DNA from: Planctomycetota bacterium
GTDB taxonomy: Bacteria > Planctomycetota > Planctomycetia > Pirellulales > Pirellulaceae
Length of the DNA stretch: 11,755 nucleotides
Reading direction: 5' to 3'
Assembly: GCA_024277285.1 (NCBI GenBank)
Contig: JAJRVM010000301.1
Location: 1-11,755, forward strand
The position numbers and the translations under genes are program-made. Shown piece by piece: positions 1-11,755 of the stretch; the first letter of the stretch is position 1, and every line of letters starts with the position of its first letter. Below the pieces are notes generated by a model. That model had not been told where the DNA came from. It searched no databases and saw nothing but the letters and a program-made list of their open reading frames with translations.

Positions 1-2
1 AC

Positions 3-443
3 TTGAACCGTGCCGCAGCTCAAGCCGAGCCCAGCACCAATCAGCAGAGAGCGCTGAACCGGTCGGCATGGAGAAACGCCACTCAACCAACGCGCCAATT
101 CGTACCAGCCGGCACGCCTTCCAACGCGCCACCTGCCAACGCGCCACCTGCCACCGCACCGCCTGCCACCGCACCCTCAAACAATGCGACTCATGTCTAT
201 CCCACCAACGGCACCGGCATTGACAACGCACCGCTGGGCCAACAGGGGTTTACTGGCGTCGGGGCACAGGACTCACTTTCGGCGAAGTCCCGGCCGTGGG
301 CTCGGCAGCATGAACAAGCAGCTCATTTTGAACCTCCGCGATTCCGGGTTCCAACAAAGCCAGGCGTTCAGCGACATCTCGGGCGTGGGACGATTCGACG
401 GTCCCCGTTAACACCGCGACCCGACCTTCCATCTTCACATTGA
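3..443 (+). CDS. Doubtful partial frame, Pro/Ala/Thr/Asn-rich, cut by the left edge
   Basis: A plus-strand frame is open from the left edge to a TGA at 441-443, so any real gene would begin outside the window. Positions 3-250 encode a low-complexity Ala/Pro/Thr/Asn/Gln-rich stretch with an imperfect APPA(N/T) repeat around 121-180, as in the disordered tail of a secreted or surface protein. From 250 onward it runs antisense through the BON-domain gene, and there the translation turns Arg/Pro/His-rich, which is typical of a shadow frame. Either a real C-terminal tail ends near 250 and the rest is readthrough by chance or a frameshift, or the whole frame is accidental. No family is recognised. 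The minus-strand frames here contain stops, so they offer no better gene. Confidence 0.3.
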   Translation: MNRAAAQAEPSTNQQRALNRSAWRNATQPTRQFVPAGTPSNAPPANAPPATAPPATAPSNNATHVYPTNGTGIDNAPLGQQGFTGVGAQDSLSAKSRPWARQHEQAAHFEPPRFRVPTKPGVQRHLGRGTIRRSPLTPRPDLPSSH

Positions 444-1029
444 CCGATCCACGACCGTAATCGCCGCGTTGGAGTACGCGTTTGATTACCTTGTCGTAGT
501 TGGCGCGGACGTTGGCCACCGGCGCAACGGAGGCGGTGAAGCCGAGTTTGGCGTGAGTTCGGATGACCTTCCGACCTTGGTTTGATTGTTGCTGCTGGCT
601 GCCACCGAACCGGTTGTTCCCGAATCCGTACATGCCGCCAACGCCACCGAGCCCGCCGACGCCACCAAGCCCACCGAATCCGCCGACGCCGCCAATACCA
701 CCAAGGCCGCCAAAGTTTCCCCGGCCCGTATTGCTGCCGGCGCCGAGCGCCGTCGCAGCTCCTTGACCAAACGCGCCGGTACCAGCGCGCGCGCCGGCGG
801 TGGTCGTCCCGATCAAGGTACTCCCCCGGGTATAGGTATCGAATCCCGAACCCATGAATCGACTGTCCAACCCGTAGCCTTGGGCCGATGATAACGTCGA
901 CGCGCTGCCCGCCCTGCCGGTTGAAGAACCGGTCGCGCCACCAGACCCTTGCTGGGCAAACGCTTCTTGGTGAGCGGAAAACAGGCACATAGCCAATGCC
1001 GCGACAAGGCAAATCGATTGGCGAATCAT
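250..1029 (-). CDS. Secreted glycine-rich BON-domain protein
   Basis: The protein is 259 aa. The ATG at 1029 was chosen over an upstream in-frame ATG at 1128 because a GGGAG Shine-Dalgarno-like motif precedes it and the protein then opens with a clean signal peptide (MIRQSICLVAALAMCLFSA, AFA cleavage site near residue 25). Order: signal peptide; Gly/Ser/Thr/Ala-rich linker (about 26-102); a GGxGGx glycine-rich repeat (about 103-143); a Gln/Asn patch; then a BON domain (about 172-239) with a VKMEGRVAVLTGTVESSHAR strand-turn-strand and VQNELLV at its end. BON domains occur in exported proteins such as OsmY and secretins and are thought to bind membranes or phospholipids. An envelope or periplasmic role is inferred. 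The gene is transcribed away from the DUF3352-like gene across a 768-bp gap. Its exact role is unknown. Confidence 0.85.
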   Translation of the reverse strand: MIRQSICLVAALAMCLFSAHQEAFAQQGSGGATGSSTGRAGSASTLSSAQGYGLDSRFMGSGFDTYTRGSTLIGTTTAGARAGTGAFGQGAATALGAGSNTGRGNFGGLGGIGGVGGFGGLGGVGGLGGVGGMYGFGNNRFGGSQQQQSNQGRKVIRTHAKLGFTASVAPVANVRANYDKVIKRVLQRGDYGRGSVNVKMEGRVAVLTGTVESSHARDVAERLALLEPGIAEVQNELLVHAAEPTAGTSPKVSPVPRRQ

Positions 1030-1488
1030 CGGTTCAGCTCCCTGAGACGGCTTGGCCGCCAAGCAAGAATTCCAACAAGGTGTGCACCAAGCAGGTTCGC
1101 TACCAAAGCTTGCGCACGCAAAATCCACTCACCCGGCATGCCGCAGCCAAACGAACCTGCTACACGCACGCGCCACAGAGCGCATCTTTCATCGCATCGG
1201 TTGACTTTGGCCCATTCCCCGAGGCGTTCAAGATGATTTTGGCCCCAACCATGCGTTCCATGCCCAATTGTACTCGATTTTCCACTCTTGTGGCCAGATA
1301 ATCCAAGCCGCACAACACATCAAACCCCAAAACACATGCCAGGTGCCGGTAGACACTGCCGAATCCGCACGATCAATCCACTCGCAGCTGAAACTCTGGG
1401 GGGAAGACAGGGGTATTCTTGAGCAATCACAATGTCCGCAATTTGCGGGGAGTTTCAGCGAATACCCTTTCATCGAAGCTCGATTAGT

Positions 1489-1630
1489 TTTTTCGTATCT
1501 GTTTAGCCGATTGCAGCGTTTGACGAAGTCAGGGACCCCGGCGGGCTTGCCCCGTAGGTGAACGAGTTTTGCCAGCTAAGACGCCGATCCCAATAAACTT
1601 CTTCACCCGCCGCACAAGGCGGTGGGGGTC
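1489..1630 (+). repeat. Structured palindromic repeat element, copy 1
   Basis: Three pairings occur in order. First is a hairpin at 1538-1546/1550-1558 around TTG (7 of 9 pairs, one G-T). Second is a split inverted repeat, GGTGAA..AGTTT (1557-1569) against AAACT..TTCACC (1595-1607). Third is a hairpin at 1606-1613/1619-1626 with loop ACAAG (8 pairs, one G-T). The same three pairings in the same order occur at 11409-11590 with different stem bases. The 5' flank (1489-1537, with TTTTTTCGTA, TAGCCGAT, GCAGCGT and GTCAG) matches 7641-7694. The element lies upstream of the DUF3352-like gene. It could be a REP/BIME-like or IS200/IS605-derived palindromic repeat (inference). No transposase gene is present. 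Confidence 0.7.
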
Positions 1631-1683
1631 GATCCACTGCCAACCAAACCTCAATGCACATTCAACTTCATTCGGCTAAACTG

Positions 1684-1713
1684 TTGCGTTTTTCTCAAGC
1701 GGTTTGTTATGTA
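1684..1713 (+). promoter_or_regulatory. Possible sigma70-like promoter for the DUF3352-like gene
   Basis: TTGCGT at 1684-1689 and TATGTA at 1708-1713 are 18 nt apart, about 85 nt upstream of the preferred GTG start. The -10 box sits within a GTTATGTAAC palindrome (1706-1715). The match is moderate and planctomycete promoters are poorly characterised, so this is only a candidate. If real, it rules out the longer ATG start at 1654. Confidence 0.3.
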
Positions 1714-1784
1714 ACAGCTGTGGCGGCCCATCATCAAGCCCGCACCGTATCACGAACGTTTTCACCCCCCAAACGAATGGCGTC

Positions 1785-1790
1785 AAGGAG
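1785..1790 (+). promoter_or_regulatory. Shine-Dalgarno AAGGAG that decides a GTG start
   Basis: AAGGAG lies 7 nt before GTG at 1798 (a TTG follows at 1801). The upstream in-frame ATGs at 1654 and 1777 have no comparable motif, and starting there would put a long non-hydrophobic stretch before the signal peptide. Confidence 0.65.
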
Positions 1791-1797
1791 AGTCCCC

Positions 1798-3591
1798 GTG
1801 TTGCAGGTTCACATTCGATCAAGATCCTTTTCTTGCTTGGCAACTTCTGTAGCTGTAGCTGCATGCTGCTTGGCGATAGGTGGTTCCAACACTTTCGTAG
1901 AACGGGCTTTTGCAGAACGGCCGAGTGCACCGAAGTTGCTGCCCAAGAAGACGGTTGCCTATTTGCGCGTCGCGGACGCTCCAGCACTGATCGAAGCATT
2001 CAAGGCAACGTCGATGGGCCGATTGGGGCGCGACGAGCAAATCCGGCCGCTTGTTACGCAACTTTATGGCTCGGCGGCACAAGCGTTCACGAAGATCCAA
2101 GACGAAATCGGCGTGTCGTTGAGCGAAGTCATGGACCTTCCCCAGGGCGAGATGTGCGTCGCCGTGGTCGCCCGTGAAGAGGGCGATCCAGCCTTTATCG
2201 CGCTGATGGATGTGGGCAAGAACTTACCTGCAGTAAAAAAGGTACTTGGTGCCGCCGAGCGTGCGGCACAGCGCGATGGTAAGTCGCGCCGCACCGAAGA
2301 CGTGGATGGCGTGCAGCTGACGATTTTGGACGACAAAGTTGCGTTCTGTGATCGCGAAGACACGGTCCTGTTCAGCTCGTCGCCCGAACTGATCAAGGAA
2401 GTCCTTCAAACATGGAACGAAAATGAAGGCGTCGAGACGCTGGCCGACAACATTCAATTCACCACGATCATGCGTGGCAGTTTGGGGACCAAGGACGAAC
2501 GTCCTCAGATTACTTGGTACGTCAATCCGCTCGACTTGTTCCGAGCGGTTACACGCAACAATGGCGGCGCGCAGATGGCCTTGACCATGCTCCCCATGCT
2601 GGGGCTCGACGGCGTAAAATCGGCTGGCGGCAGCGTCATCCTCGCCACCGAGGAGTTTGACTCGATTTCCCATATGCACTTGCTATTGGATACGCCTCGC
2701 GAGGGTGTCATCAAGATGTTGGCCATTGAACCGGGAGATTCCGATCCGGAGGACTGGGTCCCTGAAGACGCGGCGTCCTACATGACCGTCCATTGGAACT
2801 TGCAGCAGACGTTTGATGAATTGGAGAAGATGATCGACGCATTCCGCGGCGAGGGCGCCTTCGGCCGCATGATCAGCCAGAGAATGTCGGAGCCGTTGGG
2901 AATCGACTTCCAAAAGGATGTTCTGGACCAGCTGGATGACCGCGCAACACATGTTTCCTGGTTCGAAAAACCGGCTCGGGTCAACAGCGGAACGAACTTG
3001 ATTGGCATCAAATTGAAGGATGCCAACGCCTTTTCAAGTACGTTTGACAAGATCTTGCTTAAGGTCGGCCAGCGCGCGACCAAGAAGACCTATCGAGGGA
3101 TCACGTACTATGCGTTCAAGGCACGGCGCCAACTCAATGCAAAACAAGAAGGACTCGTCCGCCAGCCGACACCTTGCATGGCGATTGTGGGAGATTATTT
3201 ACTGGGCTCGGACAGCGTCAAATGCCTCGAAGCGGCCGTAGCGGCGAAACGCGATCCGGCGACTTCATTTGCCGACGCGTTGGATTACAAGCTGATCGCC
3301 AGCCGAATTGAACAACAACTGGGATCCACCAAGCCGGGCATGGTCGCGTTTCAACGCCCCGAGGAAACGATGCGTTCGTTTTACGATCTGGCCACCTCGC
3401 CCACGACGCGGCGTCAACTCGAGGAACTGGCAAAAACCAACAAGGCACTGAAGACGCTCAACGACGCCCTGCGCGACAATCCTCTACCCCCATTTTCGGT
3501 AATCGCTAAGTACCTGGCTCCCGGCGGCGGCATGCTGATTAGCGATCAGTCCGGCTTCCACTACATGACTTTCGCGCTCAAGAGAGAATAG
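1798..3591 (+). CDS. Secreted DUF3352-like protein of unknown function
   Basis: The protein is 597 aa when started at GTG 1798, chosen for the AAGGAG motif before it. Residues 11-29 are hydrophobic (ATSVAVAACCLAIGG) and are followed by an AFA site near residue 39, giving a Sec signal peptide. A loose lipobox (VAAC) in the hydrophobic core leaves a lipoprotein possible but less likely. The mature protein opens with LLPKKTVAYLRVADAPALIE and continues through VMDLPQGEMCVAVV, a pattern I associate with large secreted DUF3352-like planctomycete proteins. It has two similar-looking halves, each with an alternation of predicted strands and helices and a short 'valuation' strand (MCVAVVAREEGDPAFIALMD and CMAIVGDYLLGSD). 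No catalytic motif is visible. The family assignment is from memory of the pattern and the function is unknown. It appears to be a single transcription unit. Confidence 0.85.
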   Translation: MLQVHIRSRSFSCLATSVAVAACCLAIGGSNTFVERAFAERPSAPKLLPKKTVAYLRVADAPALIEAFKATSMGRLGRDEQIRPLVTQLYGSAAQAFTKIQDEIGVSLSEVMDLPQGEMCVAVVAREEGDPAFIALMDVGKNLPAVKKVLGAAERAAQRDGKSRRTEDVDGVQLTILDDKVAFCDREDTVLFSSSPELIKEVLQTWNENEGVETLADNIQFTTIMRGSLGTKDERPQITWYVNPLDLFRAVTRNNGGAQMALTMLPMLGLDGVKSAGGSVILATEEFDSISHMHLLLDTPREGVIKMLAIEPGDSDPEDWVPEDAASYMTVHWNLQQTFDELEKMIDAFRGEGAFGRMISQRMSEPLGIDFQKDVLDQLDDRATHVSWFEKPARVNSGTNLIGIKLKDANAFSSTFDKILLKVGQRATKKTYRGITYYAFKARRQLNAKQEGLVRQPTPCMAIVGDYLLGSDSVKCLEAAVAAKRDPATSFADALDYKLIASRIEQQLGSTKPGMVAFQRPEETMRSFYDLATSPTTRRQLEELAKTNKALKTLNDALRDNPLPPFSVIAKYLAPGGGMLISDQSGFHYMTFALKRE

Positions 3592-3964
3592 TTGGTGACC
3601 CCGGGGTTCTTCAACCTGAGTCAAGCGGGGAAGCACCGCCAAGCAAAGACGCGCGCCGCCTCGGTTTCCAACCCGGGTCGGTTTGTGGCAGGCGGTTTGT
3701 GGCAGGCAGTTTGGCGGCGACCGCCATCGCGATCCCCTCCAATCCGAACACCGCCGGGCAATTTACGGGGTGCAAAATGGTCTATCAGCCCAGTCTACTT
3801 GGGGTTTTCCGCGGCGCCCTCGTGGTCCTTTGCCCGCTCCCTGGGCCCGTTCACGGCTAGTTTCCTTTGCCCAGTCGGTTGCAAAACTGAGCGAACTCCG
3901 CTACTTCTATAGCTTAGATACAGCGCAATGCCCGGGACGGGTCTAGTGAAAAGGTAATTGATCG
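3592..3964. other. Intergenic region before the response regulator
   Basis: This 373-bp gap holds a CCCCGGGG-centred palindrome (ACCCCGGGGT, 3598-3607) just after the upstream stop, which may belong to a weak terminator without a T-run. It also holds a short tandem repeat (3681-3708) and, before the ATG at 3965, a modest AAAAGG ribosome-binding site. Frames through the gap encode Pro/Arg/Ser-rich sequence with no recognisable domain and are treated as non-coding. Confidence 0.55.
3681..3708 (+). repeat. 14-nt direct repeat, two copies
   Basis: GTTTGTGGCAGGCG (3681-3694) is followed at once by GTTTGTGGCAGGCA, and then by a partial third unit beginning GTTTGGCGG. It looks like a slippage duplication; no function is evident. 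Confidence 0.7.
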
Positions 3965-4369
3965 ATGGCCAATGAGAACGCCAAGGACGAAAAGTCTACC
4001 GAATCGGAAAAACAGCGAATCCTGTTGGTAGATGATGATTCTGAGATCATTGAGGCGATGCGGTACACGCTCGAGGCAAAGGGCTACGAGATTCTGGTCG
4101 CACGAGACGGCAATCAAGGACTCGCGATGGCTGAGCGAGAGGATCCCGATTTAGTCATTTTGGATATGATGATGCCCAAACGCAGTGGTTTTCTGGTGCT
4201 GGAGAAGCTCCGCCGAACTCGCCCAGTGCCGCTGCGAATCATCATGATTACCGCGAACGAGGGGAGCCGCCACAAAGCATATGCGGAAATGCTCGGGGTG
4301 GACGACTACATTCGCAAACCATTTCCAATGGACCGTCTGATCGCCAGTGTCAAACGTTTGCTCGATTGA
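3965..4369 (+). CDS. Stand-alone receiver-domain response regulator (CheY-like)
   Basis: The protein is 134 aa: a short charged N-terminal tail (1-17) followed by one complete receiver domain and no output domain. All expected residues are present: the acidic pocket in ILLVDDD (D23, D24), phospho-acceptor D67 in VILDMMMP, T96 in IIMITAN, and K118 in DDYIRKPF. Phosphotransfer from a histidine kinase to D67 is the family's known chemistry; output would be by protein-protein contact. No kinase gene lies nearby, so the partner is encoded elsewhere. The ATG at 3965 has a weak AAAAGG about 10 nt upstream. The gene stands alone, with gaps of over 340 bp on both sides. Its pathway cannot be told from the sequence. 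Confidence 0.93.
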   Translation: MANENAKDEKSTESEKQRILLVDDDSEIIEAMRYTLEAKGYEILVARDGNQGLAMAEREDPDLVILDMMMPKRSGFLVLEKLRRTRPVPLRIIMITANEGSRHKAYAEMLGVDDYIRKPFPMDRLIASVKRLLD

Positions 4370-4717
4370 TGCCTGCGGCCACCTGTTCGCCTTTTCATTA
4401 CGATCAGATTATCCCACCTGCGCCGAACCGCTCGATCGGTGCGGCCTTGTCCAGCAGGCGGGTACCGTATTGTCCCGGATAATATTATCGCGGATCGTGT
4501 CGCCATAGTCGTAATGTGAATCACCTGTCGCGCGGTACCACCGGGCAACCGGCGATGGAGACCGATCACCGTCGATTCTTCAAATCGACCCAAATTAACG
4601 TTACTCACTTCCATCCATGCGATGCACAAGCGTGTGCGCTTTGGTCGTATCGCTGTTGGGCGGAACAACCACCTCGACAGTAACAAGCCCCTCCACTTCA
4701 AGCACGAGATATGACGC
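4370..4717. other. Intergenic region before hemQ, with one AT-rich palindrome
   Basis: In this 348-bp gap no gene could be supported on either strand. Minus-strand frames run through it but lack ribosome-binding sites and recognisable domains. The one visible structure is a perfect 12-bp palindrome, GATAATATTATC, at 4478-4489. It is an island of A/T in GC-rich sequence about 230 nt before hemQ and could be an operator or part of a -10 region. Confidence 0.5.
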
Positions 4718-5566
4718 ATGAATCACGGTAGGCCGACCAGACCGGAACCAATCGAGCCCGCGTTGGAGCCGACAAGCGGATGGCATTGCACGCACACATT
4801 CTACCGTTTCAACCGCAGTCGGCTGGCAGGCCTGAGTATCGCGCAACGGCAGGCTGGAGCAGGTCCATTCCATGACGCGCTGAACCCACAACGAGATGAT
4901 GCTCCGGCACGATTACAGACGAGCATTGTGAGTGGGCACCGCGCTGATTTTTCTCTGATGGCGATGGATCCCAATCCGCTGCGCATCGACAGCGTGCATC
5001 AGCAGCTCCTCGCCGGTCCCCTGGGACCCGTGATCGACGCCACCTATTCGTTTGTGTCGATGACCGAGGTTTCGGAATATGTACCGACGCTCGAACAATA
5101 TGGAAAACGCCTGATTGATGATGGCGAACAAGAAGGGACACCCGAGTTCCAGGCAAAAATGAAGGCGTACGAGCGTCGGGAGCCGATGATGCGTCGGCAA
5201 CGACTCACACCCGATCTCCCGCAATGGCCGGCAACCTGCTTTTACCCGATGAACAAGAAACGCAAGGCGGGCGAGAATTGGTTTACACTCGACTTTGCCC
5301 ATCGTAATCGTTTGATGGCGGAACACGCGCGCAGTGGGATGGCATTTGCCGGCCAAGTATCCCAGCTAATCACTGTCGCGGTTGGACTCGATGATTGGGA
5401 ATGGGGAGTAACGCTCTGGGCCAAGAACCCCGAGTTCCTCAAGAACATTGTCTATCGCATGCGATTTGACGAAGCAAGCGCCCGGTATGCGGAGTTCGGA
5501 CCATTCTACGTCAGCTACCTGGCAGATGCTGACGCGATCCTCGAACATTGCCGCGTCGGTCCATAA
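4718..5566 (+). CDS. hemQ: HemQ, coproheme decarboxylase (chlorite dismutase family)
   Basis: The protein is 282 aa. HemQ (ChdC) converts iron-coproporphyrin III to heme b by H2O2-dependent oxidative decarboxylation, the last step of the coproporphyrin-dependent heme pathway, in the cytosol. The N-terminal half (about 21-120) is the divergent ferredoxin-like repeat and the C-terminal half (about 160-270) the heme-binding repeat. Diagnostic motifs are CFYPMNKKR, NWFTLDFAHRNRLMAEH, GLDDWEWGVTLW and MRFDEASARYAEFGPFYVSY. H203 fits the proximal heme ligand. Spacing from it places R162, Y176 (catalytic Tyr), K180 and Q216 exactly where I recall R131, Y145, K149 and Q185 relative to H172 in Geobacillus HemQ. 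Gln at the distal site favours HemQ over true chlorite dismutase, which has Arg. The ATG at 4718 gives the expected length; the ribosome-binding site is weak. No other heme gene is in the window. Confidence 0.92.
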   Translation: MNHGRPTRPEPIEPALEPTSGWHCTHTFYRFNRSRLAGLSIAQRQAGAGPFHDALNPQRDDAPARLQTSIVSGHRADFSLMAMDPNPLRIDSVHQQLLAGPLGPVIDATYSFVSMTEVSEYVPTLEQYGKRLIDDGEQEGTPEFQAKMKAYERREPMMRRQRLTPDLPQWPATCFYPMNKKRKAGENWFTLDFAHRNRLMAEHARSGMAFAGQVSQLITVAVGLDDWEWGVTLWAKNPEFLKNIVYRMRFDEASARYAEFGPFYVSYLADADAILEHCRVGP

Positions 5567-5659
5567 TTCACCCGAGTGGGTCAACGACTAACGGCGAACG
5601 ACCTTCTTTCGCAAAATCCTTTCGCTTCCTTGGTGGTGGCCCACGGCCACGTCGAGCGC

Positions 5660-5697
5660 CCAATGTCCAAGAAACTTGCCAATGTCCAAGAAACTTG
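5660..5697 (+). repeat. 19-bp tandem duplication covering the exonuclease start codon
   Basis: CCAATGTCCAAGAAACTTG occurs twice back to back (5660-5678 and 5679-5697). Each unit carries an ATG, at 5663 and 5682. Because 19 is not a multiple of 3, the first ATG is out of frame and opens an 11-codon frame (MSKKLANVQET) ending in TGA at 5696-5698, so it overlaps the true start. Confidence 0.9.
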
Positions 5698-6245
5698 ATC
5701 GTGTCCTCGTCATCGATATCGAGTGTACCTGCTGGGATGACCTGCCACCGCGTGGGCAAATGAGCGAGATCATTGAAGTGGGACTCTGCGTCGTTGACGT
5801 GCAGTTGCTGCGGCGCCTCGAACGCCGCTCGCTGATGGTCAAGCCAATGACGTCAGAAGTCAGTGAGTTCTGCACCGATTTGACCGGAATCACGACGGAG
5901 ATGGTCCAGGACGCTCCGCCCCTTTCCGAAGCGGTTCGCATCTTGCGTGACCAGTATCGAGCTGGGGACCGGCTGTTCGCCAGTTGGGGTGATTACGATC
6001 GCAAGCAATTCTACCGTAACTGCCAGACATACAACTTGAAGTATCCTTTCGGTCCCACTCATTTGAACATCAAGAACCTCTTCTCAACGGCATTGGGACT
6101 GAATCAAGAGTTGGGCATTGACGGTGCGTGCCAACGCCTTGGATTGACCATGGAAGGTGCACACCATCGCGGCGTCGACGACGCGTGGAATATCGCACGC
6201 ATCTTCTGCTTGTTGCTCAAACGTGCGCGACGCGTCGCCGTGTGA
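5682..6245 (+). CDS. DEDDh 3'-5' exonuclease, ERI-1/KapD-like
   Basis: The protein is 187 aa from the ATG at 5682. An in-frame TTG at 5676 is less likely. It is a single RNase-T-type exonuclease domain filling the whole protein. The catalytic residues are visible: D12 and E14 in VLVIDIECTCW, D106 in WGDYDRKQF, and H162 and D167 in HHRGVDDAWN. The layout matches the ERI-1/3'hExo subfamily, including YNLKYPFGPTHLNIK before the last motif. The family removes nucleotides from 3' ends of RNA or DNA using two metal ions; the substrate here is unknown. No clear Shine-Dalgarno precedes it, and its start lies in a 19-bp tandem duplication. It follows hemQ by 115 bp on the same strand, so a shared transcript is possible, and is convergent with the YdjY gene. 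Confidence 0.9.
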   Translation: MSKKLDRVLVIDIECTCWDDLPPRGQMSEIIEVGLCVVDVQLLRRLERRSLMVKPMTSEVSEFCTDLTGITTEMVQDAPPLSEAVRILRDQYRAGDRLFASWGDYDRKQFYRNCQTYNLKYPFGPTHLNIKNLFSTALGLNQELGIDGACQRLGLTMEGAHHRGVDDAWNIARIFCLLLKRARRVAV

Positions 6246-6296
6246 ACAACGCATCGGGCAATCGAATTGCGGTCTGTTCAGACGAAGAGAACGCTG

Positions 6297-6321
6297 TGTG
6301 GCTCGGGAATCTTTCCCGAGC
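6297..6321. terminator. Hairpin between convergent genes; also one arm of a 25-bp inverted repeat
   Basis: A perfect 9-bp stem GCTCGGGAA/TTCCCGAGC with loop TCT (6301-6321) lies 55 nt after the exonuclease stop and 145 nt after the opposing YdjY stop, so it could act as a two-way terminator, although no T-run follows. The hairpin with its TGTG flank recurs in reverse orientation at 7921-7945, which suggests a dispersed repeat rather than a dedicated terminator. Confidence 0.5.
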
Positions 6322-6447
6322 ATGGACGACATTGCCCTTCCAGGCGAATTACTATTGCCGGTTGATTAAACAGGGGACGCGTTGCGGAATACGCTTATTC
6401 GAGCGTTCTGGCGATAGCTGGATTCTTGCAGCTGGAGCCCCATCCAT

Positions 6448-6467
6448 GCCTGGATAGAATCCCAGGC
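6448..6467 (-). terminator. Weak stem-loop at the end of the YdjY gene
   Basis: GCCTGG (6448-6453) pairs with CCAGGC (6462-6467) across an 8-nt loop, touching the minus-strand TAG stop. With six base pairs and no T-run it is only a possible termination or mRNA-end structure. Confidence 0.25.
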
Positions 6468-7462
6468 TACGGCCCGGCATCTGCTTTTTCTTTGGTCGGC
6501 GTCTTGCCCGGTTGCTCTTTGGTTGGTTCTTGGTCCGACGCCGAAGGTTTTGCCGTCCCACTCTTTGGCGTCGTTTTTTTCTCCTTGCCGTCCGGATCCA
6601 CTTTCACTTTGGCTTTTTTGAGCTTCGGCGTGAGCAACAAGTAGACGCGTGTGCCACGCGGCGGAATCCGCTCCGTGAAAGCACAGAACATGAGCGTGTC
6701 ATTCGCATCACTACTCTCGACGGGAAGATCGAGCATGGCGGTGGAGAAATTTGACACACAAATGAACTCGCCACCATCCGCGTTATAGTACTGTTTGCCG
6801 GTCCGCTCGTCCGTCCAGAACCCGCTGCCGGCGAACACCCACGGATACTCCAAGGCCTTTCCGGTTTTCGTTTGCTTGACCCACTGCTGGGCACGTACGC
6901 GATGTTCTTTCCCTTTAAGGTCCTTCCAAATCACCGTGACTTCCACTTCCGTCCCTTGTGCCGGTTTGTATTTGGGCTGGAATTGGACCGGTGGGCCAGG
7001 CCGAGCGCCGATGGCAACCAAACCTGCATGAACGAACCGAGCTGGCGTGTTGGCCGAGACAATCGCCTCGTGTTCCTTTGTTCCGACCGGGCACGAAAAC
7101 ATCTCCAGCAGCCCCTCGCGAAGACAAATTCTGCCCCCCACCAAGATCTGTTTCTTTTTCAGATCGATCCAAACTTCATAGTCAAGAGTCGAACGGAGCC
7201 AGTTCTTACCTGGTTTGAAAGGTAATTCCGGTTTGATTCGTCGCGTCGATTCGTTTGGCGCCACCTCTCCGTCGTCGGCCGTCGGCTGCTGGCCCCATGC
7301 ACTGCCCTGAGCAAGCACCAATACCAACAGGAAGATGCCGAGAAAGCACGAATTGACCTGACGACCGCATGCCGATCGAGGGTAAATCGAGCGATCGACC
7401 TGATCCAAGCCGCCATTTCTGGCCGCCAGTTGGATCGTGACGGACTTAAGCCGTTGTTGCAT
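6467..7462 (-). CDS. Secreted YdjY-domain protein
   Basis: The protein is 331 aa. The ATG at 7462 was chosen because AGGAAACGG precedes it; a longer in-frame start at 7591 adds 43 residues with no family character. The n-region is long (about 39 residues). A hydrophobic core (FLGIFLLVLVLAQG, about 40-53) and a possible cleavage site after AWG (residue 57) follow. The YdjY core spans about 95-280, with GGRICLREGLLEMFSC, GTKEHEAIV, RFVHAGLVAIGARPGPPVQF, FAGSGFWTDE, GGEFICVSNFSTAMLDLP and FTERIPPRGT, as I remember it from planctomycete proteins of this name. The tail (about 280-331) is a Lys/Pro/Thr-rich low-complexity extension. The domain's biochemical role is not established; export to the periplasm or envelope is inferred. 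It is convergent with the exonuclease gene and bracketed by a 25-bp inverted repeat (6297-6321 and 7921-7945). Confidence 0.87.
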   Translation of the reverse strand: MQQRLKSVTIQLAARNGGLDQVDRSIYPRSACGRQVNSCFLGIFLLVLVLAQGSAWGQQPTADDGEVAPNESTRRIKPELPFKPGKNWLRSTLDYEVWIDLKKKQILVGGRICLREGLLEMFSCPVGTKEHEAIVSANTPARFVHAGLVAIGARPGPPVQFQPKYKPAQGTEVEVTVIWKDLKGKEHRVRAQQWVKQTKTGKALEYPWVFAGSGFWTDERTGKQYYNADGGEFICVSNFSTAMLDLPVESSDANDTLMFCAFTERIPPRGTRVYLLLTPKLKKAKVKVDPDGKEKKTTPKSGTAKPSASDQEPTKEQPGKTPTKEKADAGP

Positions 7463-7640
7463 GGTTCCGTTTCCTGCCAATGGTGAATGATCCTTAAAAC
7501 TCGCCGCGATGGAACAGTGACGACGCCTCAGCGCCGCCTGAGGCCGTTGTGCAAAAACTGTCGCCGAACTGCGGATAATCCAAGCCGACACACTTAATTC
7601 TACTCGTCGAGTCGGTCTTGTTGCACGTAACCGTTCACGG

Positions 7641-7713
7641 TTTTTCGTAATCTTTATCAGTATAGCCGATCGCAGCGTCTGCCTGAGTCAGAGCTGCTCA
7701 CGGGCTTGGCCTG
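7641..7713 (+). repeat. Degenerate 5' part of the structured repeat, copy 3
   Basis: This aligns with 1489-1558 through TTTTTCGTA, TAGCCGAT, GCAGCGT, GTCAG and CGGGCTTG in the same order. It then forms the equivalent hairpin at 7701-7705/7709-7713 with the same TTG loop (5 pairs, one G-T). The inverted arms and the ACAAG hairpin of the full element are not found downstream, so this looks like a truncated or decayed copy. Confidence 0.5.
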
Positions 7714-7894
7714 GGCTGACCAGAAAGCCGAATACTGCGCAGACAGGGGCCACCAAGTCTTCCGCAGGCGTCACATACCCGGGCGTCGAAGCCATGCGAT
7801 TGCCTGGCGACTCAGCTGCCAAGCGATTCAGACGTTGGCTGCGTCTGAAAAGACACCAATTCTACTGCCGCCAAACGTTGAGAAGCGGCAAGCA

Positions 7895-7945
7895 ACGGCA
7901 CGGAGTGCCGTGCCACTCTCGCTCGGGAAAGATTCCCGAGCCACA
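7895..7945. repeat. Two adjacent hairpins; second is the inverse of 6297-6321
   Basis: The first hairpin is ACGGCAC/GTGCCGT with loop GGA (7895-7911). It can re-pair as GGCACGG/CCGTGCC (7897-7903 with 7908-7914). The second is a perfect 9-bp stem (7921-7929 and 7933-7941) with loop AGA. Together with the following CACA, it is the exact reverse complement of 6297-6321 over 25 bp. A REP-like palindromic repeat is the likeliest reading. Confidence 0.7.
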
Positions 7946-8366
7946 CGGAACCTCCGACCAACACAACAAGAAATGGCGTTTCGTACCATACGTGTCTGGG
8001 ATGGGGCGCAGCGTATCTTAGGCGAGCATGATAAAATAGCGAACCAACAATAGCCGATCGAAAGGCTGTTGCGAGCGGCACTAGGTCCAGAATGCAAGAG
8101 TCCGCAGTTGAGAGCCAGAAATCCAGAGTGCTGGAGGTTTCTCAGACCAAGGTTATGCCGACGGTGCGTGTGCATTGGATAAAGTAACGCGTTTTAGGAT
8201 CAGAGTCATAACGTTGCGCATCGAAGCACATGTGGACCGTCGGTCCCGGGGAACCTCATGGTACGTCGTGCGGTGCCACGTTTCGTGCGTTCGCTAACTT
8301 CGGAACCCACCACGCGGTGTGCCCCCATCGGGGCGGACCATACTACGTTTGTGACGGTGATTGAGG

Positions 8367-10190
8367 ATGTCCAAAAAGACCCTATCGACAGCTTCTTCCA
8401 AGCGATCGAAGAACAAGACCAAACCGCCTAAAGGCAGTGGCACGAAGGCGAAGAACAAATCGCCTCGATTAAATGGTCCGGATTTACCGGCATCCGACTT
8501 GTGGACCGATTGGGTTAAGCATTTGTCAACTCGCTCGGTCCCGGCGGATCTGCTCGACCTGCTTGAGAACGCCAATACCCACCCACTCATGTGGGCTCTG
8601 CCGAACCAATACGAACAGCTCAAGCCACCGAAGCTACTGAAGCAGCTCACTCGCTTGAACCGAGCGAAACGGTTCGCTTCCGCCGAGGTCGTTTCACTGT
8701 TGCGCCAATGGCTCGACGCAGCGTCTGGACGCAATCCGGACGGTCTGTTTGCACTGGAGTGTCTAGGGTGGGCGCATGCATTGCCCCGGATCAGTCCAAT
8801 GGTCTCAGAAACGGATTGGCGAACACTGTTAGCGCGATTGGAAGAGACGGTGGAAGTGGCAGGCGGACTGGCGCCACATGATGACCCGGTCGTGCATCAG
8901 TTACTTTGCGGCGAACTGCCTCTGACGCTCGCCTATTTACTGCCCGAGATCACCCGATTCAAGGCGCTCCGTCGAACGGCTCGAGCAGCCTTGTCGTTTG
9001 GGATTGTCGAGCTGACCGATGGAGAAGGACTCGTTAACGCACGTTTGCTCGACCACTATCGCCAGTTGTTGGCCATCTGGACTCGTTGCAGCCTGTTGGG
9101 AGCGACCACCGACTGGGATTGCTTCGATGCGGGCGGTCGCAACCAGTATGAGTGGGTCGTGCGGCAATCTTTACGTTTGAGCCGACCGGATGGCTCATTG
9201 GTTTTCGCGCGTGGGGTGAGTGGCGACTGGTGTCCCGACCTATCGCAAATCGCCCTGGCCGAAGGTGGCGATCAGCTCGATATCAAGATCGCCGATCACA
9301 TGTTGCCAGGAGCGACCAGCAAGCTATCCGCGCGGCAAACGCGTAAGTTACCCGAGCCATCGGTGTACTCGGAATGGTCCGAGGCTTGTTTCATGCGTTC
9401 AAAATGGTCACGTAAGAGTCCACAATTCAGTTGCTTGTTTAGCGATCGCCGCATACGCAGCGAATTGTGCGTAGGTGGACGCGTCATCTGGTCGGGCGAC
9501 ACGAGTCCAGAACTGCAGATCGACCGCAGCGTTCTGGCAATGACCAGCGATTGGACAGAAGTCTGTTGGTTCACCGACGACGATGTCGACTACTTGGAAT
9601 TAGAGGCCGCGTACGAGGGCGGATGGAGAGTTCAGCGGCAATTGTTGCTTGCACGGCACGACCACTTCCTGCTCCAAGCCGATGCGGTTCTCGGTCCGGC
9701 AGAAGCTGACATTAGCTACGCCTGCCGTTTCCCACTAGCCGAGGACATCGCGTTTCTGGGCGAAGAGGCGACGTGTGAAGGTTATCTCAAGAACAGTCGG
9801 CCTCTTTGCACCGTGCTGCCGATCGCCCTACCGGAATGGCGCCGCGCGGCAACCAACGGCAGCTTGCAACTGGACAGCCAGCAGCTGTGTCTGAGCATGC
9901 AGGCGTCGGCGCGGCGACTTTACGCGCCTTTGTTCGTCGATCTCTTATCGCGGCGTTGGCTCGAAAAACGGACGTGGCGCCAGTTGACTGTCGCCGAACA
10001 GTTGGAGATTCAGGGCCCCGACATCGCGGCTGGCTTTCGAGTGCAACTTGGACGCAAGCAGTGGCTGATTTACCGCTCACTCGCCCCACGTAGCAATCGA
10101 ACGCTACTTGGGCAAAATCTTTCGCAAGAATTTGTAACAGCCAGGTTCGACGACGAAGGATGTTTGCAAGAGCTGATCGAGATCGAGTAA
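8367..10190 (+). CDS. Conserved-looking cytoplasmic protein of unknown function, first gene of the yggS operon
   Basis: The protein is 607 aa from the ATG at 8367, where GGTGA sits 6 nt upstream. A TTG two codons earlier is less likely. I do not recognise the family with confidence. Residues 1-37 are Lys/Ser/Thr-rich and basic, with no signal peptide or membrane segment. Residues about 40-245 are Leu/Ala/Arg-rich and probably helical (LLDLLENANTHPLMWALPNQ, VVSLLRQWLDAA, TARAALSFGIVEL). From about 250 on, the sequence alternates as in a beta-rich fold, with LSRPDGSLVFARG, SGDTSPELQIDRSVLAMTSD and WRVQRQLLLARHDHFLLQAD. A helical half followed by a beta-sandwich half faintly recalls heparinase II/III-like lyases, but no catalytic residues could be assigned and the lack of export argues against it. 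It ends 13 nt before yggS, so the two are probably co-transcribed. Confidence 0.85.
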   Translation: MSKKTLSTASSKRSKNKTKPPKGSGTKAKNKSPRLNGPDLPASDLWTDWVKHLSTRSVPADLLDLLENANTHPLMWALPNQYEQLKPPKLLKQLTRLNRAKRFASAEVVSLLRQWLDAASGRNPDGLFALECLGWAHALPRISPMVSETDWRTLLARLEETVEVAGGLAPHDDPVVHQLLCGELPLTLAYLLPEITRFKALRRTARAALSFGIVELTDGEGLVNARLLDHYRQLLAIWTRCSLLGATTDWDCFDAGGRNQYEWVVRQSLRLSRPDGSLVFARGVSGDWCPDLSQIALAEGGDQLDIKIADHMLPGATSKLSARQTRKLPEPSVYSEWSEACFMRSKWSRKSPQFSCLFSDRRIRSELCVGGRVIWSGDTSPELQIDRSVLAMTSDWTEVCWFTDDDVDYLELEAAYEGGWRVQRQLLLARHDHFLLQADAVLGPAEADISYACRFPLAEDIAFLGEEATCEGYLKNSRPLCTVLPIALPEWRRAATNGSLQLDSQQLCLSMQASARRLYAPLFVDLLSRRWLEKRTWRQLTVAEQLEIQGPDIAAGFRVQLGRKQWLIYRSLAPRSNRTLLGQNLSQEFVTARFDDEGCLQELIEIE

Positions 10191-10203
10191 CGGTGGCGCG
10201 ACC

Positions 10204-10914
10204 ATGGCAACAGGATACGAACAACGACTGGAGGACAACTTGGCCAGCGTGCGCGCCGCGATGGCCGACGCGGCACGGCGCAGTGGCAGACAACTGCGGG
10301 ACGTTACCCTGATCGGGGTCACCAAATACGTCGATAGCGCGATCACTGAAAGTCTCGCCCGTGCCGGTTGTTTGACGCTGGGGGAAAGCCGTCCGCAGTC
10401 GCTCTGGGCGAAAGCCGCTTCACTGCAGCATCTGCCGATTCAATGGCACATGATCGGCCATCTCCAACGCAACAAGATCCGCCGTTCGCTCCCGTTGTTA
10501 ACCTGTCTTCACTCGGTCGACAGCACGCGGCTGCTGGACAGCTTGGATCACGAAGCGCGCCGCGCCGATCACCGGCTGAACGTCTTATTGGAAGTGAATA
10601 TCTCCGGCGACACCGAGAAAACCGGCCTGATGCCGGAAGCAGCTATGCCCCTCGCCGAACGCCTCGATCATTGGAGTGCGCTCGATATATGTGGTCTGAT
10701 GGCGATGTCCGGACGGTCGAGTGACGCTGCGCAAGCGCGAGGCCAATTCGCCGAGCTGCGAGAACTGCGCGACCGCATGCAGCGTGTTTGTCCGGACCAG
10801 ATTAAGCTGAGTCAGCTGTCAATGGGGATGAGCGCCGATTACACGATCGCCATTGAGGAAGGGGCCACGATGGTGCGCGTTGGCAGCGCATTGTTTGAAG
10901 GGATTCGCGGGTGA
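10204..10914 (+). CDS. yggS: YggS/PROSC family pyridoxal phosphate homeostasis protein
   Basis: The protein is 236 aa, full length for the family. YggS binds PLP and helps balance free PLP and related amino- and keto-acid pools; it has an alanine-racemase-like TIM barrel but no known enzyme activity. The PLP-binding lysine is K41 in LIGVTKYVD. Other signatures are WHMIGHLQRNK (81-91), VNISGDTEKTGL (131-142), GLMAMSG and SQLSMGMSADYTIAIEEGAT with MVRVGSALF near the C-terminus. The usual GEN-x-x-Q motif after strand 2 reads GESRPQ (60-65), a departure that may mark the clade. The ATG at 10204 lies 13 nt after the upstream stop, with a weak GGTGG before it. The stop overlaps the start of the DUF167 gene. 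It acts in the cytosol. Confidence 0.95.
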   Translation: MATGYEQRLEDNLASVRAAMADAARRSGRQLRDVTLIGVTKYVDSAITESLARAGCLTLGESRPQSLWAKAASLQHLPIQWHMIGHLQRNKIRRSLPLLTCLHSVDSTRLLDSLDHEARRADHRLNVLLEVNISGDTEKTGLMPEAAMPLAERLDHWSALDICGLMAMSGRSSDAAQARGQFAELRELRDRMQRVCPDQIKLSQLSMGMSADYTIAIEEGATMVRVGSALFEGIRG

Positions 10915-11210
10915 TCGAACTAGCCGAGCATGCCGATGGCGTCGTCCTGCCAGTGCGTGCGCAGCCCGGTGCGCGTGCCAATGTAATCCGAGGGCTCCAT
11001 GCCGGAGCGCTCAAAGTGGCAGTAACCCAAATCGCTGAGAAGGGCAAAGCCAACAAGGCGATTGCCAAACTGCTCTGCAAATCACTATCTCTGCGACGCG
11101 CGCAATTGACGCTCATCTCGGGTGAGACCAGTGCCGACAAACAGTTCCTCGTCCGCACGATTACACGGCAGGAACTCGCCGAACGTATCGACGCCGCGTG
11201 TGACAGCTAG
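10911..11210 (+). CDS. yggU: DUF167 (YggU/UPF0235) family protein
   Basis: The protein is 99 aa, starting at GTG 10911 and overlapping the yggS stop as GTGA (4 nt), an arrangement typical of coupled translation. Family signatures are VRAQPGARANVI (15-26), GALKVAVTQ, GKANKAIAKLL (45-55) and SGETSADK (70-77). The usual Pro-Pro before GKAN is replaced here by IAEK. DUF167 proteins are small alpha/beta proteins of unknown function. In Enterobacteria yggU lies in the same cluster as yggS, separated by the membrane gene yggT, which is absent here. The last codons and stop lie in a 10-bp inverted repeat that could end the transcript. The assignment is firm and the function unknown. Confidence 0.93.
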   Translation: MIELAEHADGVVLPVRAQPGARANVIRGLHAGALKVAVTQIAEKGKANKAIAKLLCKSLSLRRAQLTLISGETSADKQFLVRTITRQELAERIDAACDS

Positions 11211-11246
11211 TGCGCTGGCCCAGCCAAGAATTCGGTACTAGCTGTC
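11202..11246 (+). terminator. Inverted repeat overlapping the yggU stop codon
   Basis: GACAGCTAGT (11202-11211, containing the TAG stop) pairs perfectly with ACTAGCTGTC (11237-11246). The 25-nt loop holds its own small palindrome (GCTGGCCCAGC). No T-run follows, so this is a possible end-of-operon structure rather than a textbook terminator. Confidence 0.35.
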
Positions 11247-11281
11247 TCCGCGCTGTCGAACGTTTTGCATAGCCATGCGAG

Positions 11282-11298
11282 CACTGGCATTGCCAGTG
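11282..11298. repeat. Short palindrome downstream of the yggU operon
   Basis: CACTGGCA and TGCCAGTG flank a single T, or a 7-bp stem closes on the loop ATT. It lies about 70 nt past the yggU stop and could add to termination or be a REP-type fragment. Confidence 0.45.
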
Positions 11299-11338
11299 AC
11301 ACCCAATCCGAAGTTCAGGTTGAACCAAAGCCTAGTGC

Positions 11339-11617
11339 GACAGCGCCACTTTATCTGAACCAAAACCCGTAACATGTTTCCAGGTAGTAGGTTATTGGCC
11401 TTAAGGCCCCTGCCTGCTTGGCAGGCAGGTGAATCAGTTTGCCAAGCTAGGAGGCAATCGAGATGATTTCCCCCTTCTCTCCCGCGTCTGCCGCCAGAGG
11501 CGGCAGACGCGGGAGAGAAGGGGGATTTTCGGCGGTGCCCCGGCTAGCCATGCAAACTGATTCACCAACGGCACAAGGCCGTTGGGGTCTGGAGTTTGCG
11601 TCCAAAGTGGCGCTGTC
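11339..11617. mobile_element. Nested palindromic element bounded by 14-bp inverted repeats; contains structured repeat copy 2
   Basis: GACAGCGCCACTTT (11339-11352) and its exact complement (11604-11617) enclose, in order: a 12-bp palindrome GGCCTTAAGGCC (11397-11408); a 9-bp hairpin with loop TTG (11409-11429); a 15-bp arm beginning GGTGAATC (11428-11442); a perfect 27-bp stem with 3-nt loop AGA (11469-11495/11499-11525); the returning 15-bp arm (11552-11566); and an 8-bp hairpin with loop ACAAG (11565-11572/11578-11585). The hairpin-arm-hairpin order repeats the element at 1538-1630. No protein-coding gene is inside. A MITE-like or REP/BIME-like non-autonomous element is the best reading. 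No target-site duplication could be recognised, so mobility is inference. Confidence 0.55.
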
Positions 11618-11713
11618 CAGCGAGTGTGCCAGGCCTCTGACTGCGCGAACAGATGTGCGTGTTTTGACGATCCGCTTGCGGTGGTCGTGGGTTACAACGG
11701 CAGTGCACAGTGG

Positions 11714-11755
11714 CTCCTTGATGGGGCTCCTTGATGGGGCTCCTTGATGGGGCTC
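11714..11755 (+). repeat. 13-nt tandem repeat cut by the right edge
   Basis: CTCCTTGATGGGG occurs three times without mismatch (11714-11726, 11727-11739, 11740-11752), and CTC at the end starts a fourth. The array probably continues beyond the window. The unit length is not a multiple of 3 and no gene is evident here. Confidence 0.85.

Follow-up and report, generated by a model that had tools for sequence, protein, structure and literature searches.

What kind of element occurs twice in an 11,755-nt contig of a Planctomycetota bacterium (Pirellulaceae; GenBank assembly GCA_024277285.1, contig JAJRVM010000301.1, positions 1 to 11,755 of the forward strand), each time as hairpins whose stems differ in sequence and yet remain paired? 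A sequence-only reading of this stretch, which is referred to below at its full length as the window, had described the two loci (here copy A and copy B) and suggested a repetitive extragenic palindromic (REP) element bound by a REP-associated tyrosine transposase (RAYT), an IS200/IS605-like end, or a structured RNA. Our analysis indicates that both loci are probably non-autonomous mobile elements resembling REPs and bacterial interspersed mosaic elements (BIMEs), moved in trans by a protein composed of two Y1 (HUH) domains.

Each locus joins two inverted copies of a 29-nt hairpin unit

The TTG-loop and ACAAG-loop hairpins, the arms and the identical spacing noticed earlier turned out to be, at both loci, inverted pairs of a single 29-nt geometry; the loci had been correctly located, although the starts assigned to them fall 4 nt inside the units. 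The unit reads TTCACC-N5-CACAAGG-N5-GGGGTC, with variants, and the left units of the window show the reverse complement of this, the loop being CTTGC in copy A and CTTGG in copy B. Between copy A and copy B, the ACAAG hairpin carries the changes that had been reported (C-G against A-T at pair 1, G.T against A-T at pair 2 and C-G against G-C at pair 4), two pairs being changed on both sides and one on one side. The swaps described for the other (CTTG) hairpin, G-C against T-A and G-C against C-G, were found as well; its stem in copy A also contains a G x A mismatch and a G.T, which had gone unmentioned.

Two window copies alone are insufficient to establish selection on the folded form, and the case is therefore made by copies from outside, which covary. 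Genome contigs were scanned for the right unit with five outer stem positions per side left open, yielding at least 116 stretches (L001-L116) from at least 29 genomes as judged by accession prefix; the unit-locus counts given hereafter concern these matches listed. The labels of 25 of the 29 genomes listed are Lentisphaerae, Kiritimatiellae, Verrucomicrobia, Spartobacteria, Opitutia, Planctomycetes or Planctomycetes-Verrucomicrobia-Chlamydiae (PVC), and among the four labelled otherwise, two loci (L001 and L065) have unpaired, chance-like stems. The matches comprise 42 distinct stem-arm pairs, in which 181 of the 210 open positions form Watson-Crick pairs, compared with an average of 93 and at most 119 over 1000 re-pairings of the arms; pairing was not imposed by the pattern, and relatedness is handled in this count only by counting distinct arms once. 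The outside copies thus bear out the proposed selection on the folded form, and the contrary outcome, stems that vary without compensation, did not occur among them.

With one mismatch allowed, at least 4 matches were found in 23 of the 29 genomes, up to a maximum of 226, and the backwards pattern gave one match across all 29. The consensus of 165 distinct units (window included) is RAYCTnn-TTCACC-hairpin-GGGGTC, with feet TTCA(CC) and GGTC, the RAYCTnn preceding them, and a sharp edge after GGGGTC. A CT lies at positions -4/-3 of the unit (C in 96%, T in 68%). Neighbours less than 400 nt apart in L001-L116 and the window are arranged head-to-head ('-+', 57 pairs) or on the same strand (25 pairs) and never tail-to-tail ('+-'), an arrangement that is present in G020; single and tandem units occur besides doublets. 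The two units carry different hairpins in 55 of 61 doublets, and each hairpin is therefore maintained on its own. An inner inverted repeat of 12-34 bp, its left arm mostly pyrimidine-rich, is found in 41 of the 45 doublets spaced at least 90 nt apart (copy B included), three of these repeats (L037, L069 and L107) being merely the hairpin of a further unit and many of the 45 doublets being contributed by RIFOXYA12, a single genome. With its spacing of 156 and its 28-bp arm, copy B is typical of the long doublets, and palindromes of its kind but of other sequence occupy the same mid-doublet position in other PVC genomes; copy A is a short doublet. By folding energy alone, copy A is not remarkable (z -0.96); copy B is (z -12.6), and owes this largely to the perfect palindrome at 11469-11525, the arms of which are 27 nt long.

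The repeat present at both loci is a REP/BIME-like DNA repeat. It has the size and copy number of REPs (a short palindrome of 20-40 nt in many copies; here 29 nt and up to 226 matches), and its doublets correspond to the inverted pairs known as BIMEs or REPINs (REP doublets forming hairpins). The unpaired GTAG or CGTC tag that described REPs bear at one end is absent from the consensus of the 165 units. Viral contigs scanned for the unit gave 0 matches.

Covariation would also be expected of a structured RNA, a riboswitch-like element or a transcription terminator maintained for its RNA fold, and the covariation is real; copy B moreover would form a very stable four-helix fold as RNA. We nevertheless regard such an RNA as very improbable. 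No Rfam match exceeded its gathering score; the ten hits with E values of 1 or less are to eukaryotic small-RNA models, fall far short of the respective scores and lie around the central palindrome. The units number up to 226 per genome, occur in both orientations, dispersed, in inverted pairs and in tandem arrays, have no T-tract following the hairpins (by eye), and are patchily present, 2 of 392 planctomycete genomes having convincing ones. The structured RNA of the sequence-only reading thus found no support.

A two-domain Y1 protein is encoded among the units

Weak PF01797 matches in five genomes led to three genes sitting among units (G020:C119, G020:C463 and G002:C362). The G002 protein (P0001, 263 aa) has 952 homologs at E values up to 1e-3, and many of the 120 listed are named 'REP element-mobilizing transposase RayT' at their source. 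Each chain of this divergent 263-aa family consists of two Y1 domains, two Y1 folds per chain being predicted in both structure models. The N-terminal domain retains the Tyr and Gln (YxxxQ) and has lost the HUH, while the C-terminal domain retains the HUH and ends before the Tyr; the residue order is Y120..H213, and the motif at the HUH site is PDH[LV]H. The same split of catalytic residues over two domains is seen in a sister group of proteins. Profile comparison of the N-half with the C-half alone is weak (P 0.023), with the register correct. Searches of P0001 with Foldseek and VIA listed mainly the C-terminal domain, and we do not count the absence of the N-terminal domain there as contrary evidence.

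The protein carries a Y1_Tnp domain by profile: PF01797 (cut-off 23) scored 32 to 67 bits in six of seven two-domain sequences, the seventh (L239) having been scored in the wrong strand. The RAYT profile NF047646 (cut-off 80 bits) was not reached in any of five proteins (15.5 to 24.3 bits), and the IS200/IS605 TnpA profile NF033573 (cut-off 55 bits) was exceeded in two of five (65.3 and 58.4) and missed in three (44.1, 49.7 and 53.9). In one locus (L214), the frame of the two-domain gene, 76-909 from a GTG at 76, crosses a unit at 94-122; a later start is possible for this gene.

Most of the genes are bordered by CAAG-loop hairpins

When the two-domain profile was run on the 116 unit loci listed, the gene was found in four, from four genomes, each time adjoining units. 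In 7 of 13 gene-bearing genomes, the TTCACC..GGGG form is found no more than about 150 nt from the gene, and in G023 the one pattern match of the genome lies 22 nt from it. The unit and the variant hairpins that flank the gene elsewhere share the (N)CAAG loop. As is characteristic of RAYT genes, the two-domain gene is bordered by hairpins: 31 of 38 genes have, within 300 nt, a CAAG-loop hairpin 8 bp or more in length (the closer group accounts for 28, out of 30 genes, and the distant relatives for 3 out of 8; of the loci drawn by protein alone, 16 of 23 have one). These 38 leave out duplicates (L265, L266, L277 and L280), a 73-aa fragment (L290), distant or partial loci (L246, L291, L292 and L293), and also G008:C227 and G023:C113. 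Eleven permuted loop words gave 0 or 1 of 38 genes, and the CAAG hairpin was found at 73 of 2000 random places and at 1 of 27 other Y1 genes. Because the sole positive among the latter (L132), as well as L131, is a two-domain protein of the sister group, the single-domain controls amount to 0 of 25. Most units face away from the gene (19 of the 24 upstream of it and 19 of the 26 downstream), and the gene therefore sits inside an inverted pair, at the place of the doublets' middle. These hairpins are presumably the cognate ones of the neighbouring gene.

The open reading frames (ORFs) near units, 482 in total, were also compared by all-against-all BLASTP. Large groups were frames through the repeat itself (by eye), a three-member group (L038, L086 and L099) was the two-domain gene, and the latter was the sole nameable family recurring across genomes. 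No mobile gene was spotted by eye among the ORFs beside 13 chosen unit loci, nor was a convincing gene seen in a 640-nt gap between two G006 units. These data bear on whether the loci could be classical miniature inverted-repeat transposable elements (MITEs), with terminal inverted repeats, a DDE transposase and only incidental hairpins. Outer inverted arms do surround both window copies, and some RIFOXYA12 doublets seemingly lie within longer inverted flanks (by eye). However, the part that recurs across phyla is the unit and not the outer arms, single and tandem units are unexpected for a MITE mobilised end to end, and the only nameable recurrent family among the 482 ORFs encodes a Y1 protein, in a comparison that included no profile search for DDE families. 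We thus hold a MITE to be quite improbable.

Ordinary single-domain Y1 transposases (canonical RAYT, TIRYT or IS200 TnpA; TIRYT, terminal inverted repeat-associated tyrosine transposase) could also move REP-like repeats, with the two-domain gene merely residing in repeat-rich places. PF01797 genes are indeed present in 26 of 27 unit-bearing genomes tested, including genomes where the two-domain gene was undetected, and a TIRYT-like 338-aa Y1 gene of G020:C342 (L174/L206) has a TTCACC-type unit about 25 nt past its stop codon. Ordinary Y1 genes were nonetheless rejected as the helper: the strict unit was found at 0 of 30 Y1 loci (flanks up to 1.5 kb) and at 3 of 40 further loci, five of these 70 (L130, L131, L132, L147 and L181) being two-domain proteins with variant hairpins. 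A profile of ordinary Y1 proteins found 0 ORFs in the 116 unit loci listed versus 52 in Y1 loci, and G012 is unit-rich (53 matches) with no PF01797 match above cut-off. An ordinary Y1 transposase as the mover is, in our judgment, unlikely. Y1 genes of about 340 aa, TIRYT-like, with GGGGTCAG..TGACCCC ends and several per genome, were observed at L149, L159, L160, L164, L167 and L170, and ends of this type were seen in the flanks of many of the Y1 loci.

Distribution of unit and gene

The unit is patchily distributed, with a match (at most one mismatch) in 21 of 392 Planctomycetota genomes and control matches in 6; by pairing (by eye), convincing units are those of G004 (93) and G159 (4). The two-domain gene was detected in 13 of the 29 unit-bearing genomes listed (E 3e-28 or better), in 24 of 387 genomes drawn from the phylum of G020 (five of which belong to the 29) and in 3 of the 392 Planctomycetota genomes. 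It was found in 0 of 30 planctomycete genomes chosen for unit absence (best E 0.003), one of which, G415, matches 4 times with a palindrome of another kind.

Several observations, chiefly those on unit-rich genomes with no detected gene and on G008 and G015, weigh against movement of the repeat by the two-domain protein. The gene was not detected, also by profile, in 16 of the 29 unit-bearing genomes, or in 12 of the 23 with at least 4 matches, among them the unit-rich G003 (19), G004 (93), G006 (17), G012 (53) and G019 (109 matches); since these are fragmented metagenome-assembled genomes, its absence from them is unproven. In the Planctomycetota draw, gene and unit coincide only in G159, whose protein is a distant relative, and the gene was not spotted among the ORFs of the window itself. 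The flanking hairpins are variants in 6 of the 13 gene-bearing genomes (CTCC..GGGGGC, TTCC..GGGGAGCC and others), including G008 and G015, where the abundant unit (93 and 32 matches) is of the TTCACC form, and 7 of the 38 genes lack a CAAG hairpin within 300 nt. Finally, neither an empty site nor a target mark nor a transposition event was observed.

Proposed mechanism

In the mechanism that we favor, the two inverted units of a doublet would be recognised as single-stranded hairpins, and the two-domain protein, whose gene is flanked in relatives by the unit or a variant, is most likely the enzyme that cuts and moves the unit in trans. Its N-terminal Y1 domain would supply the nucleophilic Tyr and the metal-binding Gln, and its C-terminal Y1 domain the HUH metal site, two half sites that would meet within one chain. 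The chain would thereby act as a pseudo-dimer with one composite active site, only one site per chain being left because each domain has lost the complementary half. Like TnpA_REP and IS200/IS605 TnpA, the enzyme would bind the single-stranded hairpin and cleave at a dinucleotide close to it, for which the CT preceding the unit is a candidate. The doublets may be an internally deleted, trans-mobilised form of gene-bearing elements, and the host of the window presumably has or had the two-domain gene.

Features of the window

A 602-aa protein of the window has 107 homologs, of which eight have a source name that gives an organism (two Pirellulaceae, two Thermoguttaceae, one each of Pirellulales, Blastopirellula and Bremerella, and one Candidatus Nealsonbacteria); the host is accordingly most likely a planctomycete of the Pirellulales. 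Copy A lies between a minus-strand gene and a gene starting near 1801, and copy B follows a DUF167-like ORF (by eye). The features of both copies are collected in Table 1; the outer arms of copy B may be part of a larger element.

Table 1. Position and anatomy of the two doublets in the window
Feature	Position	Strand	Description
Copy A outer inverted arms	1501-1510 / 1672-1681 (span 1501..1681)		GTTTAGCCGA; enclose the doublet
Copy A left unit	1534..1562	-	GACCCC-stem-CTTGC loop-stem-GGTGAA; stem degenerate, one mismatch and one G.T
Copy A middle	1563..1601		short, without palindrome; AGTTT / AAACT inner arms prolong the GGTGAA..TTCACC pairing
Copy A right unit	1602..1630	+	TTCACC-CGCCG-CACAAGG-CGGTG-GGGGTC; matches the family pattern exactly
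Copy B outer inverted arms	11339-11352 / 11604-11617 (span 11339..11617)		GACAGCGCCACTTT; enclose the doublet
Copy B left unit	11405..11433	-	GGCCCC-stem-CTTGG loop-stem-GGTGAA
Copy B inner arms	11428-11450 / 11544-11566 (span 11428..11566)		87% complementary; kind found in doublets of other genomes (GGTGAAnnAGTTnGnTGGCTAG, by eye)
Copy B central perfect palindrome	11469..11525		27-nt arms, 3-nt loop; left arm pyrimidine-rich
Copy B right unit	11561..11589	+	TTCACC-AACGG-CACAAGG-CCGTT-GGGGTC; matches the family pattern exactly

A second repeat joins 1496-1532 to 7655-7691 (30 of 37 bases identical; score 39, against a maximum of 24 in 300 shuffles), and since the left outer arm of copy A lies within 1496-1532, this doublet may be part of a repeated element of larger size. 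Elsewhere in the window, a perfect inverted repeat pair of 26 nt (6296-6321 and 7921-7946), each member of which holds a GCTCGGGAA..TTCCCGAGC hairpin, is perhaps another dispersed palindrome family. A direct repeat of period 13 (11712-11755) reaches the contig end and could be either genuine or an artefact of the assembly edge, and a 19-bp exact tandem duplication (5660-5697) lies at the start of an exonuclease-like ORF (function by eye).

Comparison with known systems

REP elements are common bacterial repeats whose transposase-driven movement is poorly understood, according to the sections of PMC8266576 used here. If our reading is correct, the two-domain protein is a natural single-chain composite site, in which the question of cis or trans catalysis by Y1 transposases becomes testable and the halves can be mutated independently, and the system adds a second solution, beside the GTAG tag, to the recognition of hairpins by such an enzyme. 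The analysis also supplies an anatomy and a likely enzyme for a repeat that several PVC genomes carry in tens to hundreds of copies.

The system resembles the REP/BIME/REPIN elements and RAYTs (TnpA_REP) of E. coli, Pseudomonas and Stenotrophomonas in its hairpins of 20-40 nt, high copy number and inverted pairs, in the flanking of a Y1 HUH gene by units, and in a CT adjoining the hairpin, CT being the common TnpA_REP cleavage site in the parts of PMC8266576 cited here. It differs in that the (N)CAAG loop, and not a GTAG/CGTC tag, is the common mark, and in that two fused, half-active Y1 domains replace the one complete domain of a RAYT, in which the HUH is followed by the catalytic Tyr; here, the Tyr is in the first domain and the HUH in the second. 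The suggestion of a REP element with a RAYT-type transposase thus holds for a REP-like repeat tied to a Y1-type protein, but not for a tagged REP or a canonical RAYT.

With IS200/IS605 TnpA (IS608, ISDra2), the protein shares the Y1 fold, the HUH and YxxxQ motifs and a hairpin-bordered gene. In the TnpA dimer, HUH and Tyr can stem from different subunits. Unlike the small single-domain subunits of TnpA, which act as a dimer (PMC6006769, in the sections used here), the chain examined here contains both Y1 folds, each without the complementary half-site. The repeat has no tie to canonical IS200 genes.

The nearest lead among described systems is Class 3 TnpA_Y1 (Quentin et al. 2018), which, in the sections of PMC6006769 used here, is found mostly in Planctomycetes and Acidobacteria, has atypical flanking hairpins that bear a CnGA foot and number up to about 600 copies, and contains HuH (NHVH) and Y within one 155-aa profile. 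Some units here likewise carry CTGA or CCGA before TTCACC, and the two systems may be related. In Class 3, NHVH is followed by YV[VI]xEQ in one domain, whereas here the Tyr precedes the HUH over 263 aa, a distinction drawn by description only. TIRYT genes are Y1 genes with inverted-repeat borders containing a GGGGWSAS motif (Di Nocera et al. 2013; PMC3733652, in the sections used here), and the TIRYT-like proteins with GGGGTCAG ends in unit-bearing genomes are as a rule not bordered by the 29-nt unit.

No description of the two-domain Y1 protein was found in the open PubMed Central literature. We lean slightly towards a distinct class of HUH transposase, which would have arisen by ancient tandem fusion of Y1 domains and reciprocal loss, leaving one obligately composite site per chain, and which, across Planctomycetes, Verrucomicrobia, Lentisphaerae and Kiritimatiellae, would drive a REP-like system of its own that has a CAAG loop as its mark in place of the GTAG tag. 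The kind of system, a REP with a Y1 enzyme, is known; its tag, its common loop and the architecture of its enzyme differ from the published descriptions examined.
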